Shown in pieces: positions 1 through 30,667 of a stretch of DNA of 39,143 bases; position 1 is the first letter of the stretch; every line of letters starts with the position of its first letter. This DNA comes from Candidatus Avamphibacillus intestinigallinarum (GTDB taxonomy: Bacteria > Bacillota > Bacilli > Bacillales > Amphibacillaceae). The position numbers and the translations under genes were made by a program. Under the pieces are notes generated by a model that saw nothing but the letters and a program-made list of their open reading frames with translations, searched no databases and was not told the origin of the DNA. The stretch spans positions 1 to 39,143 of the forward strand of contig DVIO01000064.1 in the NCBI GenBank assembly GCA_018711205.1, read 5' to 3'.

Positions 1-574
1 CTTTCAAAGTTTCTCCAGTGCCAGTAATCGTACCCCCTGTTCCGGCAGTTGATACAAACGCATCAAGATTGTGATCCATTTGTTCTAAAATTTCCTTTGC
101 TGTTGTTGTACGATGAATATCAGGATTTGCAATATTTTCAAACTGCTGTGGGATGAAACTATTTGGAATTTCAGCATGTAATGCTTCAGCTTTTTTAATT
201 GCGCCTGGCATTTTATCATCGCTAGGTGTTAATACAACCTTTGCGCCAAACGCTTGTAAAATATTAATACGTTCTTTTGTCATATTATCTGGCATGACCA
301 GTATCGCTTTATATCCACGAGCAGCAGCTGACATCGCAAGACCTATCCCCGTATTCCCACTTGTTGGTTCGATAATGGTTGCGCCCGCTTTCAACAACCC
401 AGCCTGCTCTGCAGCGTGAATCATATTAAAAGCGGCACGATCTTTAACACTTTTACTAGGATTAAAAGATTCTAATTTCACGAATACATCTGCAGCATCA
501 TCAGGTACAATCTTATTTAATTTTAAAACAGGTGTATCGCCAATTAATTCAGTGATGGAATTTACAACTTTCAT
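1..574 (-). CDS. cysK: Cysteine synthase (O-acetylserine thiol-lyase), C-terminal part cut off by window edge
   Basis: About 191 residues are present, from the ATG at 574 to the window edge; the rest lies outside. The enzyme makes cysteine from O-acetylserine and sulfide in the cytoplasm with PLP as cofactor. I see the PLP-lysine motif NPSKSVKDR (Lys44) and the phosphate-binding motif PTSGNTGIG near residue 70, both typical of fold-type II PLP enzymes of the CysK family. GAAAGG lies about 10 nt before the ATG. The gene reads in the same direction as dsdA but is separated from it by a terminator and has its own promoter-like sequence. Cystathionine beta-synthase-like paralogues share these motifs, so the exact substrate is inferred from overall similarity. 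Confidence 0.9.
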   Translation of the reverse strand, partial: MKVVNSITELIGDTPVLKLNKIVPDDAADVFVKLESFNPSKSVKDRAAFNMIHAAEQAGLLKAGATIIEPTSGNTGIGLAMSAAARGYKAILVMPDNMTKERINILQAFGAKVVLTPSDDKMPGAIKKAEALHAEIPNSFIPQQFENIANPDIHRTTTAKEILEQMDHNLDAFVSTAGTGGTITGTGETLK

Positions 575-625
575 GTTCGCACAACCTTTCAAATAACGTT
601 CTCAAAACCAAGTAATACTATCTAT

Positions 626-663: not shown

Positions 664-705
664 AAAAAATATCCCTCTATCTAATCACATAAGATAAAGG
701 GATAT
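664..705 (-). terminator. Rho-independent terminator after dsdA
   Basis: A 14-bp stem with one mismatch (669-682 with 692-705) and a 9-nt loop is followed on the minus strand by a run of six T. It lies just past the dsdA stop codon at 712-714. Confidence 0.85.
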
Positions 706-711
706 TAAACT

Positions 712-2031
712 TTATTGACTTTTCAGTAATTTCTGTCCAAGTTCATAAAATGCTTTACGTTCCTTCTCTGGTACAAGGGATCCGCCTGTTGACCAGGCAA
801 TGTGTGTGATGTTTTCTTCGTCGACATGTAAGTCAGAAATGTAGTTTGTTTCTGAGATTACCCATGGACCAATTAATCCTGCAGTTGCTGATGGTTCTAC
901 TGAAATATTTTCTTGATCCTTTAATGTAACGAGTAATTTGAATAAATGATCATCCTCAATGGTATATAAACCACTCATTAGTTGATCGCTGATTTTTGTT
1001 GCAAATTTTGAAGGTCTACCTACTGCAAGACCGTCTGCCTCAGTTTGGTTACTAATGCCAATATCTTGTACAGAAATCTCTTCCATTTTACCTGTAACAA
1101 GTCCTGTTAAAACAGCTGGAGAGGTTGTGGGTTCAACAAAGAAACAATGAACATGTGGTCCGAATATTTCTTTTAAGCCAAAAGTGACGCCGCCAGGTGA
1201 CCCTCCAACACCACAAGGTAAATAAACAAATAGCGGATGTTCCTTATCAACTTTAATATGTTTTTCATCTAATTGTTGCTTTAACCGAAGTGCGACAGTA
1301 CTATATCCTAAAAATAAATCTTTTGAGTCTTCATCATCAACAAAATAACCATTTGGTTGATCTAAGGTTTGCTTTCTACCTTCACTAATGGCCTCGCTAA
1401 AATCTCCACTAAATTCATGAACATGCGCACCGTTTTTTCTTAATAATTCCTTTTTCCATGCTTTAGCATCAGCAGACATATAGACATTCACATTAAATCC
1501 GAGTTTTGCACTCATAATCCCAATGCTTAAACCTAAATTGCCTGTTGAACCAACACCAATTGTAAAATCATTAAAAAATTGTTTCATTTGAGGTTCGGCA
1601 AATTTAGCATAATCATCGCCCTCTTGAATCAGTTGGTGTTCAAAGGCTAACTGTTCAGCGTGTTTTAATACTTCGAAAAAACCACCGCGTGCTTTGATTG
1701 AACCTGCAACAGGTAATTCATGATCACTTTTTAAAAATAATGATCCGTGAATGTTTCGGGATTGTTTTTGATTCTCAAATGCTTTGAAGTGTTCAATATC
1801 AACTAAAGGAGATTCTATAACGCCATCCTTAATTTCCGGAAATACCTCTATGAAAAAAGGAATAAAGCGTTCCCATAATTTTTCTGCTTCATAAACGTCG
1901 TGTATTGTTAACTCGAGATGAGGTTTCTCTCGTTTATTTTGATTGAACCAAACAACTGGTTTTAGCCCCATTATATCTTCTAAAATAGGAGTGTCTTGCT
2001 TCATTTGTTTAAGCAATTGTTTATCTAACAT
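712..2031 (-). CDS. dsdA: D-serine ammonia-lyase (D-serine dehydratase)
   Basis: This PLP enzyme converts D-serine to pyruvate and ammonia, for detoxification or carbon/nitrogen use. The 439-residue product matches the usual DsdA length (about 440). Visible motifs are SIKARGG, with the PLP lysine at about residue 113, and the phosphate-binding loop GVGSTGNLGLS near residue 170. I chose the ATG at 2031 because AAAAGGAGG ends 6 nt before it; an ATG at 2037 abuts the ribosome binding site, and a longer in-frame extension to 2076 would run across it. The gene appears monocistronic: a terminator follows, and a sigma-B-like promoter plus an 11-bp inverted repeat precede it. No D-serine transporter or dsdC-type regulator gene is adjacent. 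Confidence 0.93.
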   Translation of the reverse strand: MLDKQLLKQMKQDTPILEDIMGLKPVVWFNQNKREKPHLELTIHDVYEAEKLWERFIPFFIEVFPEIKDGVIESPLVDIEHFKAFENQKQSRNIHGSLFLKSDHELPVAGSIKARGGFFEVLKHAEQLAFEHQLIQEGDDYAKFAEPQMKQFFNDFTIGVGSTGNLGLSIGIMSAKLGFNVNVYMSADAKAWKKELLRKNGAHVHEFSGDFSEAISEGRKQTLDQPNGYFVDDEDSKDLFLGYSTVALRLKQQLDEKHIKVDKEHPLFVYLPCGVGGSPGGVTFGLKEIFGPHVHCFFVEPTTSPAVLTGLVTGKMEEISVQDIGISNQTEADGLAVGRPSKFATKISDQLMSGLYTIEDDHLFKLLVTLKDQENISVEPSATAGLIGPWVISETNYISDLHVDEENITHIAWSTGGSLVPEKERKAFYELGQKLLKSQ

Positions 2032-2068
2032 AATCATCCTCCTTTTAATGACTTGGTATCCTTTTATG

Positions 2069-2094
2069 ATTCCCATTAGAGGATATGCTTAAAC
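2069..2094 (-). promoter_or_regulatory. Candidate sigma-B (general stress) promoter of dsdA
   Basis: On the minus strand, GTTTAA (2089-2094) and GGGAAT (2069-2074) are separated by 14 nt. This matches the known sigma-B consensus GTTTAA-N12-15-GGGWAW at every defined position. Transcription would start about 30 nt upstream of the ATG at 2031. The match is visible directly; the regulation is inferred. Confidence 0.6.
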
Positions 2095-2247: not shown

Positions 2248-2284
2248 TAAAAAAAGAGCCTTGAAAGTACGTGCTTTCAAGGCT
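2248..2284 (-). terminator. Rho-independent terminator after the 5'-3' exonuclease gene
   Basis: A perfect 11-bp stem (2257-2267 with 2274-2284) with a 6-nt loop is followed on the minus strand by CTCTTTTTTTAT. It begins just past the stop codon at 2290. Confidence 0.9.
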
Positions 2285-2289
2285 TTGAG

Positions 2290-3162
2290 TTAATTAAATA
2301 ACTTAGCGAGCGAATGGTATTTTAATGTTTCGAGCTCCTCTTTTAAGGCAACCGCATCAAATGACCAATGCTCTGTACTTAATTCACATGAAATATCGAC
2401 ATCACATTTGATTTCTGCTAAATCTCTAGATAAATAAAGCATCTCTAAATCTGTATCTAGTTTATTTTGTAGACCTTTTGTTAATTCGTCTTTATGTAAT
2501 AAGAGATTATCAATCGTATCATATTGCTTTAATAGTTTTAGAGCTGTTTTTTCTCCAATTCCCTTAACGCCCGGATAATTATCCGCGCTATCCCCCATCA
2601 ATCCTTTAAGATCGATAATTTGCTGTGGTGTTAATTCTAATTTTTCATAGAAATTATCTTTCGTAAATACTTCATAATTTCCAATACCTTTTCTCATGAT
2701 AGCAACCTGAACATGGTCACTAACTAATTGTAAAATATCTTGATCGCCAGTTAATATGGTGACTTGGCCTTCATCTTTATAATGACATGCTAAAGTTCCG
2801 ATGCAATCGTCAGCCTCGTAGTTTTCCAAACCGATATTAGGTGTATTAAGTAACGTGACAATCTCTTTAACCAAATCAAATTGTGGAATTAATTCTTCAG
2901 GTGGTGCATCTCGATTCGCTTTATATTGTTCATATTTCTCTGTGCGAAATGTTTTACTCCCCATATCCCAACAAACAACAACATGAGTGGGTTGGAATTT
3001 TTCTACAGCATCCAAAAAATACTTTAGAAATTGATAGACACCATTCGTCGGTATACCATCTACGTTTCTCATGAAATTTCCTCGAAAAGAAGTTGCAAAA
3101 AATCCCCTAAATAATAAAGCCATACCATCTACTAGCATAATGTGTTTCTTACTCAAACTCAT
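2290..3162 (-). CDS. ypcP: 5'-3' exonuclease, YpcP family (stand-alone Pol I-type exonuclease domain)
   Basis: The 290-residue protein corresponds to the N-terminal 5'-3' exonuclease/flap endonuclease domain of DNA polymerase I without the polymerase. It probably removes RNA primers or flaps at the replication fork. Metal-binding acidic motifs are visible: LVDGMALLFR near the N-terminus, YEADDCIGTLA near residue 115, and TGDQDILQLV near residue 140. These are followed by the helix-hairpin-helix GLMGDSADNYPGVKGIGEKTALKLL near 190-215. The ATG at 3162 has GAGGAGG four nt upstream. The gene has terminators on both sides, so it is probably transcribed alone. B. subtilis YpcP is about the same length. 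Confidence 0.9.
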   Translation of the reverse strand: MSLSKKHIMLVDGMALLFRGFFATSFRGNFMRNVDGIPTNGVYQFLKYFLDAVEKFQPTHVVVCWDMGSKTFRTEKYEQYKANRDAPPEELIPQFDLVKEIVTLLNTPNIGLENYEADDCIGTLACHYKDEGQVTILTGDQDILQLVSDHVQVAIMRKGIGNYEVFTKDNFYEKLELTPQQIIDLKGLMGDSADNYPGVKGIGEKTALKLLKQYDTIDNLLLHKDELTKGLQNKLDTDLEMLYLSRDLAEIKCDVDISCELSTEHWSFDAVALKEELETLKYHSLAKLFN

Positions 3163-27989: not shown

Positions 27990-29327
27990 TTAGTACGAAC
28001 TCAAGTACTGTTCTCTTTCCCAAGGATGGACCATTGTACGGAACATATCCCATTCTATTTCTTTTGCTTCTAAGAAGTTTTCATATAAATGTGTTCCTAA
28101 AGCTTCTTGAATGATGTCATCTCGTTTTAATTCTTCTAAAGCATCTTTTAAAGTTGCTGGTAAACTTTTAATATGCTTTTCGTTTCTTTCTTCAACACTC
28201 ATTGTGTATATATTACTATCTACTGGTGCAGGCGGTGTTAATGCGTGTTCAATCCCATCTAAACCAGCAGCCAATAAAACAGACATTGTTAAATAAGGAT
28301 TTGCAGTTGGGTCGACACTTCTTAGCTCAAGTCTTGTACTCAAACCTCTAGAAGAAGGAATACGGACGAGTGGGCTTCTATTTTGTGCTGACCAGGCAAC
28401 ATAACTTGGCGCTTCATAACCCGGTACAAGTCGTTTATATGAATTAACTGTTGGGTTTGTAATTGCAGTATAGTTTGTCGCATGCTTAATTAATCCCGCA
28501 GTGAATTGATAAGCTAATTCGCTTAATTGACGTTCATTTTTGTCATCAAAAAATACATTTGTCTGTTCATTAAACAATGACATATTTACGTGCATACCAG
28601 ATCCATACACACCAAACAATGGCTTAGGCATAAATGTCGCATGTAGATTATGTCTTCTGGCGATTGTTTTCACAACAAGTTTAAATGTCTGAATGTCATC
28701 ACAATGTTTTACAGCTTCAGAATATTTAAAATCGATTTCATGTTGGCCAGGTGCTCCTTCATGGTGTGAAGCTTCGATTTCAAATCCCATTTCTTCTAAT
28801 TCAAGTACAATATCTCTTCTACAATTTTCCCCTAAATCTGTTGGGGCTAAATCAAAATAGCCACCATGATCATTTAACTCTAAAGATGGTTCACCATTTT
28901 CATCTAATTTAAATAGGAAAAATTCTGGTTCAGTTCCTATATTGAAAGTAGTAAAGCCATGTTCCTCCATTTTTTTCAGATTACGTTTCAGGTTATAGCG
29001 TGGGCATCCTTTAAATGGTGTATTGTCAGCATTAAAAATATCACAAATGAACCGTGCGACTTTTCCTTTTTCAGATGTCCACGGGAAGATTACAAACGAA
29101 TCTAAATCAGGATATAAATACATATCTGATTCTTCGATTCTGACAAAGCCTTCTATTGAGGATCCATCAAACATCATTTTATTATCTAATGCTTTATCTA
29201 ATTGGCTAAGCGGGATCTCAACATTCTTAATCGTTCCCAGCATATCCGTGAATTGCAGTCTAATAAAGCGAACATTTTCCTCGGCAATTTGTTTTTTGAT
29301 ACTTTCTTTTGTGCGTTTTAAGCTCAT
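27990..29327 (-). CDS. glnA: Glutamine synthetase, type I
   Basis: The enzyme makes glutamine from glutamate, ammonia and ATP, and in bacilli its feedback-inhibited form also controls GlnR and TnrA. The 445-residue chain is of the Gram-positive GSI-alpha type. Visible signatures are [24 protein letters not shown] near residue 50, the ATP site region [18 protein letters not shown] near 185, and [29 protein letters not shown] near 300. The ATG at 29327 has GGGAGG upstream. It lies 101 nt downstream of ynbB. The usual upstream gene glnR is absent, and I see no TGTNA-N7-TNACA GlnR/TnrA box in the gap. Confidence 0.96.
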
Positions 29328-29372
29328 GATTTGTTGCCTCCCAACAGCATTATGTAGCTTTACTTTCTTATA

Positions 29373-29401
29373 ATTATAGCGAATTCATATAATTCCTGTA
29401 T
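29373..29401 (-). promoter_or_regulatory. Candidate promoter of glnA with weak -35
   Basis: On the minus strand a perfect TATAAT lies at 29373-29378; the best -35 at 17-nt spacing is ATACAG (29396-29401), which is poor. Strongly AT-rich sequence lies upstream, which might act as an UP element or call for an activator. Confidence 0.4.
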
Positions 29402-29428
29402 ATAAAAAATTTTATTTTTTTATATTTT

Positions 29429-30667
29429 TTAATCGTTCGCGCTTAAAACTTTACGTAACGCTTCAGAAATAGCAATTTTGACATGTGCGTATGTAAGGCC
29501 ACCTTGCATATATGCTGTATACGGAGGACGAATCGGTCCATCAATCGTTAATTCGATACTTGCCCCTTGAATAAATGTGCCAGCAGCCATAATAACTTCA
29601 TCTTCATACCCTGGCATTTCGCTCGGATAAGGGGTGAAATGAGAATTAACTGGTGAATATTCCTGAATCGCTTGGCAAAATTGAATCATTTGCTCACTGT
29701 TTGCAAAATTAATGGATTGGATTAAATCCGTACGTTTGTCTTGGTAATGAGGTGTTGTTTCGATATCCGCAAGTTCTAATATACGAGCTGTAAAAATCGC
29801 ACCTTTTAAAGATTCGCCCACAATATGAGGCGCTAAGAAAAAGCCTTGATACATTTCTTGTAACATATTAAAGGTTGCCCCTGCTTCTTTGCCTAGGCCT
29901 GGAGCAGTGAGGCGATTGGCACATTTTTCTACTAAATTTGTTTTTCCTACAATGTATCCACCTGCACGAACGATACCGCCTCCAGGGTTTTTAATTAATG
30001 ACCCTGCAATTAAATCGGCCCCAACCTGAGTAGGCTCTTTTTCTTCAACAAATTCTCCGTAACAATTATCTACAAAAATAATAATTTCTGGATTGATATG
30101 TTTTATAAACTGACACATTTCTTCAATTTCTTTAATCGTAAATGACGGGCGATTGGCATAACCTTTAGAACGCTGAATACCAATAACTTTAGTTTTTTCT
30201 GAAATAGCATTTTTCACATCGGCAAATGATACCTTACCTTCTTCATTTAGTGCAATCTCTTGATATTGAATTCCATATTCTTTCATAGAGCCACTTGTTT
30301 CACCGCGAACACCAATGACTTCTTCTAACGTATCATATGGAGCACCTGTAATATAAATCAATTCATCACCAGGGCGTAGTACGCTAAATAGTGCCGTTGA
30401 AATAGCATGCGTACCTGAAACAATTTGAGGGCGCACTAAAGCATCCTCTCCTCCAAACACGTCACGATAAATAGATTCAAGGGTGTCTCTTCCCAAATCA
30501 TCATAACCATAACCCGTTGTTGAATGAAAATGTGTTTCACTTACATGATTATTACGAAAAGCGTTTAGTACTTTTCTCTGATTGTATTCAACGTTTGTAT
30601 TCACTTCTTGGAATAATTCTGAGCAATTTTGCTCCGCTTGATTGATGAGTTGTTCAATATTTGTCAT
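29429..30667 (-). CDS. ynbB: PLP-dependent methionine gamma-lyase/aluminium-resistance family protein, YnbB-like
   Basis: The 412-residue fold-type I PLP protein belongs to the YnbB family, often annotated as aluminium resistance or methionine gamma-lyase-like; the true reaction is unclear. Visible features are the N-terminal STTGYGYDDLGRDTLESIY, the cofactor-contacting VDNCYGEFVEE near residue 200, and the probable PLP lysine in AGSLIKNPGGGIVRAGGYIVG near 227. The ATG at 30667 uses AAGGAG, which is formed by the last codons of hflX (stop 30673-30675), so the two genes are tightly coupled. B. subtilis has the same ynbA-ynbB pair. Confidence 0.88.
   Translation of the reverse strand: MTNIEQLINQAEQNCSELFQEVNTNVEYNQRKVLNAFRNNHVSETHFHSTTGYGYDDLGRDTLESIYRDVFGGEDALVRPQIVSGTHAISTALFSVLRPGDELIYITGAPYDTLEEVIGVRGETSGSMKEYGIQYQEIALNEEGKVSFADVKNAISEKTKVIGIQRSKGYANRPSFTIKEIEEMCQFIKHINPEIIIFVDNCYGEFVEEKEPTQVGADLIAGSLIKNPGGGIVRAGGYIVGKTNLVEKCANRLTAPGLGKEAGATFNMLQEMYQGFFLAPHIVGESLKGAIFTARILELADIETTPHYQDKRTDLIQSINFANSEQMIQFCQAIQEYSPVNSHFTPYPSEMPGYEDEVIMAAGTFIQGASIELTIDGPIRPPYTAYMQGGLTYAHVKIAISEALRKVLSAND

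Follow-up and report, generated by a model that had tools for sequence, protein, structure and literature searches.

D-Serine ammonia-lyase and the SigB regulon

D-Serine is known to be toxic, and the Escherichia coli locus for its breakdown has the layout dsdC-dsdX-dsdA. In the general stress response, RsbV, Dps, YfkM (a DJ-1/PfpI protein) and YtxH are classical products of SigB-dependent transcription. The sites from which such products are transcribed in Bacillus are described by the consensus GTTTAA-N15(+/-2)-GGGTAT, and reporter work in B. subtilis points to 14 nt as the optimal spacer length (PMC9847131). According to the same source, SigB regulons are diverse among Bacillales, so that conservation supports a SigB promoter but does not define one. 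It also lists ygaO (GTTTAT-N14-GGGAAT), a near-consensus site with no evident response in B. subtilis. The terms 'dsdA', 'yqjR' and 'D-serine' are absent from its main text.

A partial precedent comes from B. cereus. Its DsdA (BC1725), likewise a D-serine dehydratase, is among 175 proteins with SigB-dependent induction upon heat shock (log2 1.4; PMC9912610). The sequence-only reading of the present locus, which knew of no described link between dsdA and SigB in bacilli, has to be amended on this point. In Table 2 of that paper, B. cereus DsdA has no SigB-motif mark; RsbV and YfkM carry the mark. The authors describe the newly identified SigB-dependent members as genes without SigB motifs, and on that account the effect on DsdA is probably indirect.

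In Candidatus Avamphibacillus intestinigallinarum, by comparison, a direct promoter is predicted. As set out below, the site before dsdA is likely to be a SigB promoter from which, in this lineage, dsdA is transcribed on its own.

Structure of the dsdA locus

The window (the whole stretch of DNA analysed, 39,143 nt) carries dsdA near one end, together with the following features.

712 to 2031, minus strand: dsdA, D-serine ammonia-lyase, 439 aa (NF002823, TIGR02035, alignment with 3ss7)
668 to 706, minus strand: terminator-like hairpin and U run past dsdA (fold -18.8 kcal/mol, z -5.1)
2257 to 2284, minus strand: terminator-like hairpin and U run separating dsdA from the exonuclease gene (fold -16.1 kcal/mol, z -5.7)
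2290 to 3162, minus strand: 5'-3' exonuclease gene of the ypcP type, upstream neighbour (family search)
2 to 592, minus strand: cysK, cysteine synthase A, downstream neighbour (TIGR01139, 1.7e-82; cut by the window end; open reading frame from TTG)

Judged by its family matches, the dsdA product is a true D-serine ammonia-lyase, an ordinary enzyme. It scores 597.9 bits against NF002823 (cut-off 246) and 547.2 bits against TIGR02035 (cut-off 368), with a match that spans residues 6-434, i.e. the full length. An alignment with D-serine dehydratases of solved structure (3ss7, E 2.6e-129) runs through both GSIKARGG, presumably the location of the PLP lysine, and GSTGNLGLS.

The enzyme family is thus common to this locus and that of E. 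coli, but the arrangement differs: dsdC and dsdX accompany dsdA in E. coli, whereas here the gene stands alone between hairpins, with no LysR regulator or transporter beside it. This agrees with the initial remark that a dsdC-type regulator and a transporter are missing from the immediate neighbourhood, which consists of cysK and the ypcP-type exonuclease gene. Both flanking hairpins are much more stable than shuffled sequences; dsdA is therefore probably transcribed alone and needs a promoter of its own. A scan of positions 500-2400 for sigma-A (sigma-70) promoters gave seven candidates, against 9.1 expected from shuffles, and none stands out. As for a riboswitch or other known RNA upstream of dsdA, the window as a whole gave no Rfam match.

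The SigB-type site

The sequence GTTTAA-N14-GGGAAT is present on the minus strand at 2094-2069, upstream of the dsdA ATG (2031), just as first reported. Its parts are as follows.

2089 to 2094, minus strand: SigB-type -35 hexamer GTTTAA; an identical hexamer precedes the genome's own rsbV
2069 to 2074, minus strand: SigB-type -10 hexamer GGGAAT after a 14-nt spacer; hexamer and spacing as before rsbV
2031 to 2062, minus strand: expected 5' leader with ribosome site AAAAGGAGGATGATT and ATG; predicted start near 2062

The -10 hexamer is 37 nt from the ATG, and the site lies outside the coding sequence. With a start placed about 7 nt past the -10 by rule of thumb, the leader would be about 30 nt long, matching the distance originally proposed. 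The ribosome site AAAAGGAGGATGATT that precedes the ATG at 2031 is strong; a longer open frame, from 2076, begins within the -10 hexamer.

The site fits the SigB pattern (-35 GTTTAA, -10 GGGWAW, 12-15 nt apart), and the resemblance to the consensus that had been noted is borne out by the genome's own rsbV promoter, GTTTAA-N14-GGGAAT, which has the same hexamers and the same spacing. Set against the Bacillus SigB regulon, the dsdA site has an identical -35, a 14-nt spacer, a short leader and a like-formed rsbV promoter in its own genome; its -10 (GGGAAT) differs from the consensus by one base (PMC9847131).

Such a pair of hexamers could also arise by chance and go unused by SigB, with dsdA being read from an unrecognised upstream promoter. 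This seems quite unlikely. GTTTAA-N12..15-GGGAAT has a single match in the window, where 0.03 are expected, and in 5000 dinucleotide shuffles of the 150 nt upstream of dsdA a 12/12 site never occurred (0/5000; 11/12 in 38), which argues against chance. On the other side, chance alone should yield about 2.5 copies of the exact motif in a genome, and one copy falls within an open reading frame. Because the exact motif arises by chance at the scale of a genome, the improbability of the dsdA site resides in its location before a gene start.

SigB and SigB-type sites across the genome

The genome encodes sigB (420 bits in a family search) in a cluster with the order RsbR-, RsbS-, RsbT- and RsbU-like, RsbV, RsbW, SigB and RsbX-like. 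RsbW and SigB exceed curated cut-offs, and RsbV exceeds a general anti-sigma antagonist model; the names RsbR, S, T, U and X rest on gene order and weak family matches. Further sigma factors of the SigB group are encoded as well, with weaker TIGR02941 matches. SigF and SigG promoters resemble those of SigB, and both factors read GG-rich -10 elements. These two points would allow SigF or SigG, sporulation sigma factors related to SigB, to use the promoter, making dsdA a forespore gene; the -35 GTTTAA and the N14 spacing, identical to those of the rsbV promoter, speak for SigB instead and make this highly improbable.

The assembly searched for sites of the same type comprises 2.0 Mb in 181 contigs and is 91% complete. 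It contains seven copies of GTTTAA-N12..15-GGGAAT, against about 2.5 expected from window shuffles, and 15 of GTTTAA-N13..15-GGGWAW, against 4.2 expected; the looser GTTTNA form is hardly enriched (34 versus 24 for the reversed pattern). Nine of the 15 consensus sites sit in sense, 32-140 nt upstream of an open reading frame with a ribosome site. By a rough estimate, which assumes about 1950 genes, only about 0.3 well-placed sites would be expected by chance, and this again argues against a fortuitous match at dsdA.

Most of the well-placed sites precede stress-gene families. The genes behind them are dsdA, rsbV (STAS), those for ferritin/Dps-like, DJ-1/PfpI, YtxH and Hsp20 proteins, an aldo/keto reductase and a glutaredoxin, and an uncharacterised 61-aa open reading frame. 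The other six sites are one at C158 and five that were read in context: one within an open reading frame, one before 16S rRNA, two farther upstream of genes (164 and 261 nt) and one with no downstream open reading frame found.

Taken together, the rsbV-like form of the site, the presence of sigB and Rsb genes and the nine of 15 sites before genes make it probable that the dsdA site functions as a SigB promoter. The badly placed consensus sites (inside an open reading frame and before 16S rRNA) count against a SigB promoter, as does the lack of conservation described in the next section. Confidence is held back mainly by the precedent of ygaO, near-consensus and without evident response (PMC9847131).

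Conservation among relatives

The comparison covers one member of the genus, the genome itself. Within the family, dsdA occurs in 64 of 159 genomes, own included; upstream of it, a perfect site is found in 0/63 loci and an 11/12 site in 3/63, with 0.9 expected. These 63 are the family's dsdA places besides the genome's own, less one partial match (G050); for 17 of them tblastn on short stretches found no match, and their position was taken from coordinates. At the level of the order, 60 of the 146 non-family genomes with dsdA, picked mostly by score, gave one 11/12 site and no 12/12 site (0.84 and 0.04 expected). Among named Bacilli (33 Bacilli loci out of 74 loci), 0/33 upstream regions score 11/12 or better, where 0.6 would be expected. 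The three sets partly overlap, and gene starts were assigned with a simple score for the ribosome site.

As a sensitivity control, rsbV upstream regions in the family (the best 30 of 155 genomes, own included) yielded a perfect site in 15/30 and an 11/12 site in five more, against 0.25 expected. Since rsbV sites are readily found in the family and dsdA sites are absent, the dsdA site appears, within the genomes sampled, to be confined to this lineage. The -35/-10 pair, whose conservation the sequence-only reading had named as a point on which its proposal would turn, is therefore not conserved before dsdA, and a conserved SigB site there is rejected for the family, the order and the named Bacilli sampled. 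This lack of conservation is also the further point in favour of a chance match.

The neighbourhood itself is partly conserved. Among 103 loci searched, in which some genomes are counted twice, once per collection, cysK lies near dsdA in 21 and ypcP in 13. In these 13, the gap between ypcP and dsdA ranges from 95 to 2963 nt and often holds ctaA-like or gamma-glutamylcyclotransferase-like open reading frames (named by eye). There is no support for the idea that a move of dsdA brought about the new promoter, given that the ypcP and cysK neighbours are partly conserved. Nor does the site look like a remnant of a gene lost between ypcP and dsdA: a perfect site occurs in 0/13 of the intervals. Sites of 11/12 occur in four of them (L011, L024, L082 and L110), of which L082 and L110 share one open reading frame and site.

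With the neighbourhood partly conserved, the SigB site looks like lineage-specific wiring. As dsdA has not moved far, the promoter seems to have arisen where the gene stands, unless all the other sampled genomes have lost it.

A palindrome pair upstream of the -35

An inverted-repeat search revealed a second element beyond the SigB-type site.

2106 to 2137, no strand assigned: two 14-bp near-palindromes, TGTATATTTATACA and TGCATAAATATACA, 4 nt apart; operator-like

The pair (32 bp) lies about 12 nt upstream of the dsdA -35 and is unique in the genome. It may be the operator of some regulator, or an AT-rich upstream element. Each half fits the core TGNATWWWWATNCA, so that paired cores are present; we take TGNATWWWWATNCA to be an ARG-box-like core, and the genome has an argR gene. 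From these observations it could be argued that the main control of dsdA is exerted by a regulator, possibly ArgR-like, bound to the pair at 2106-2137, with the SigB site being minor or acting in combination. We regard this as unlikely, though the least so of the alternatives considered here. At the 11 other exact single TGNATWWWWATNCA sites no recognisable arginine gene is adjacent, as judged by short translations, and among the relatives' dsdA upstream regions the pair is not seen at up to one mismatch per half; the pair may, moreover, be no more than an AT-rich upstream element.

The two elements might also work together. Direct SigB control of D-serine breakdown would then be newly evolved in this lineage and gated by the unique palindromic operator, D-serine removal requiring general stress and a metabolic signal together; such an arrangement is improbable.

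Proposed mode of regulation

If dsdA is transcribed from a SigB promoter, stress would act through the Rsb pathway to release SigB from RsbW, and SigB-RNA polymerase would initiate near 2062. DsdA, which converts D-serine to pyruvate and ammonia, would in this way be produced within the general stress response. We infer the start point, the SigB dependence and the stress induction, and likewise the purpose; the simplest would be removal of D-serine when cells or their neighbours are damaged.

The suggestion that D-serine breakdown belongs to the general stress response, made when the site was first noticed, thus stands in part: the rsbV-like site, the SigB and Rsb genes and the sites before stress genes favour it, and the conservation does not. 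On this evidence dsdA is a probable new candidate for direct membership of the SigB regulon, with the B. cereus protein as partial precedent. Were this correct, the removal of D-amino acids would join the tasks of the general stress response, and the locus would offer a clean case of an old metabolic gene placed under SigB while staying fairly close to its usual neighbours. Read alongside the B. cereus proteome (PMC9912610), the locus suggests that SigB control of DsdA may be reached in more than one way, directly in this lineage and indirectly in B. cereus.

Other features of the window and genome

One 16S rRNA gene is preceded by a perfect SigB-type site, GTTTAA-N13-GGGAAT (L224, G000:C77:443-467, minus strand), reflecting either stress control of the rRNA operon or chance.

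At 27990-30667 of the window, glnA directly follows a ynbB-type gene, and the 101 nt between them hold no same-strand open reading frame of at least 40 aa; B. subtilis has glnR in this position.

The assembly, at 2.0 Mb and 91% completeness, is small beside the 2.3 to 5.4 Mb of the listed family genomes, and the lineage may accordingly be a reduced one.
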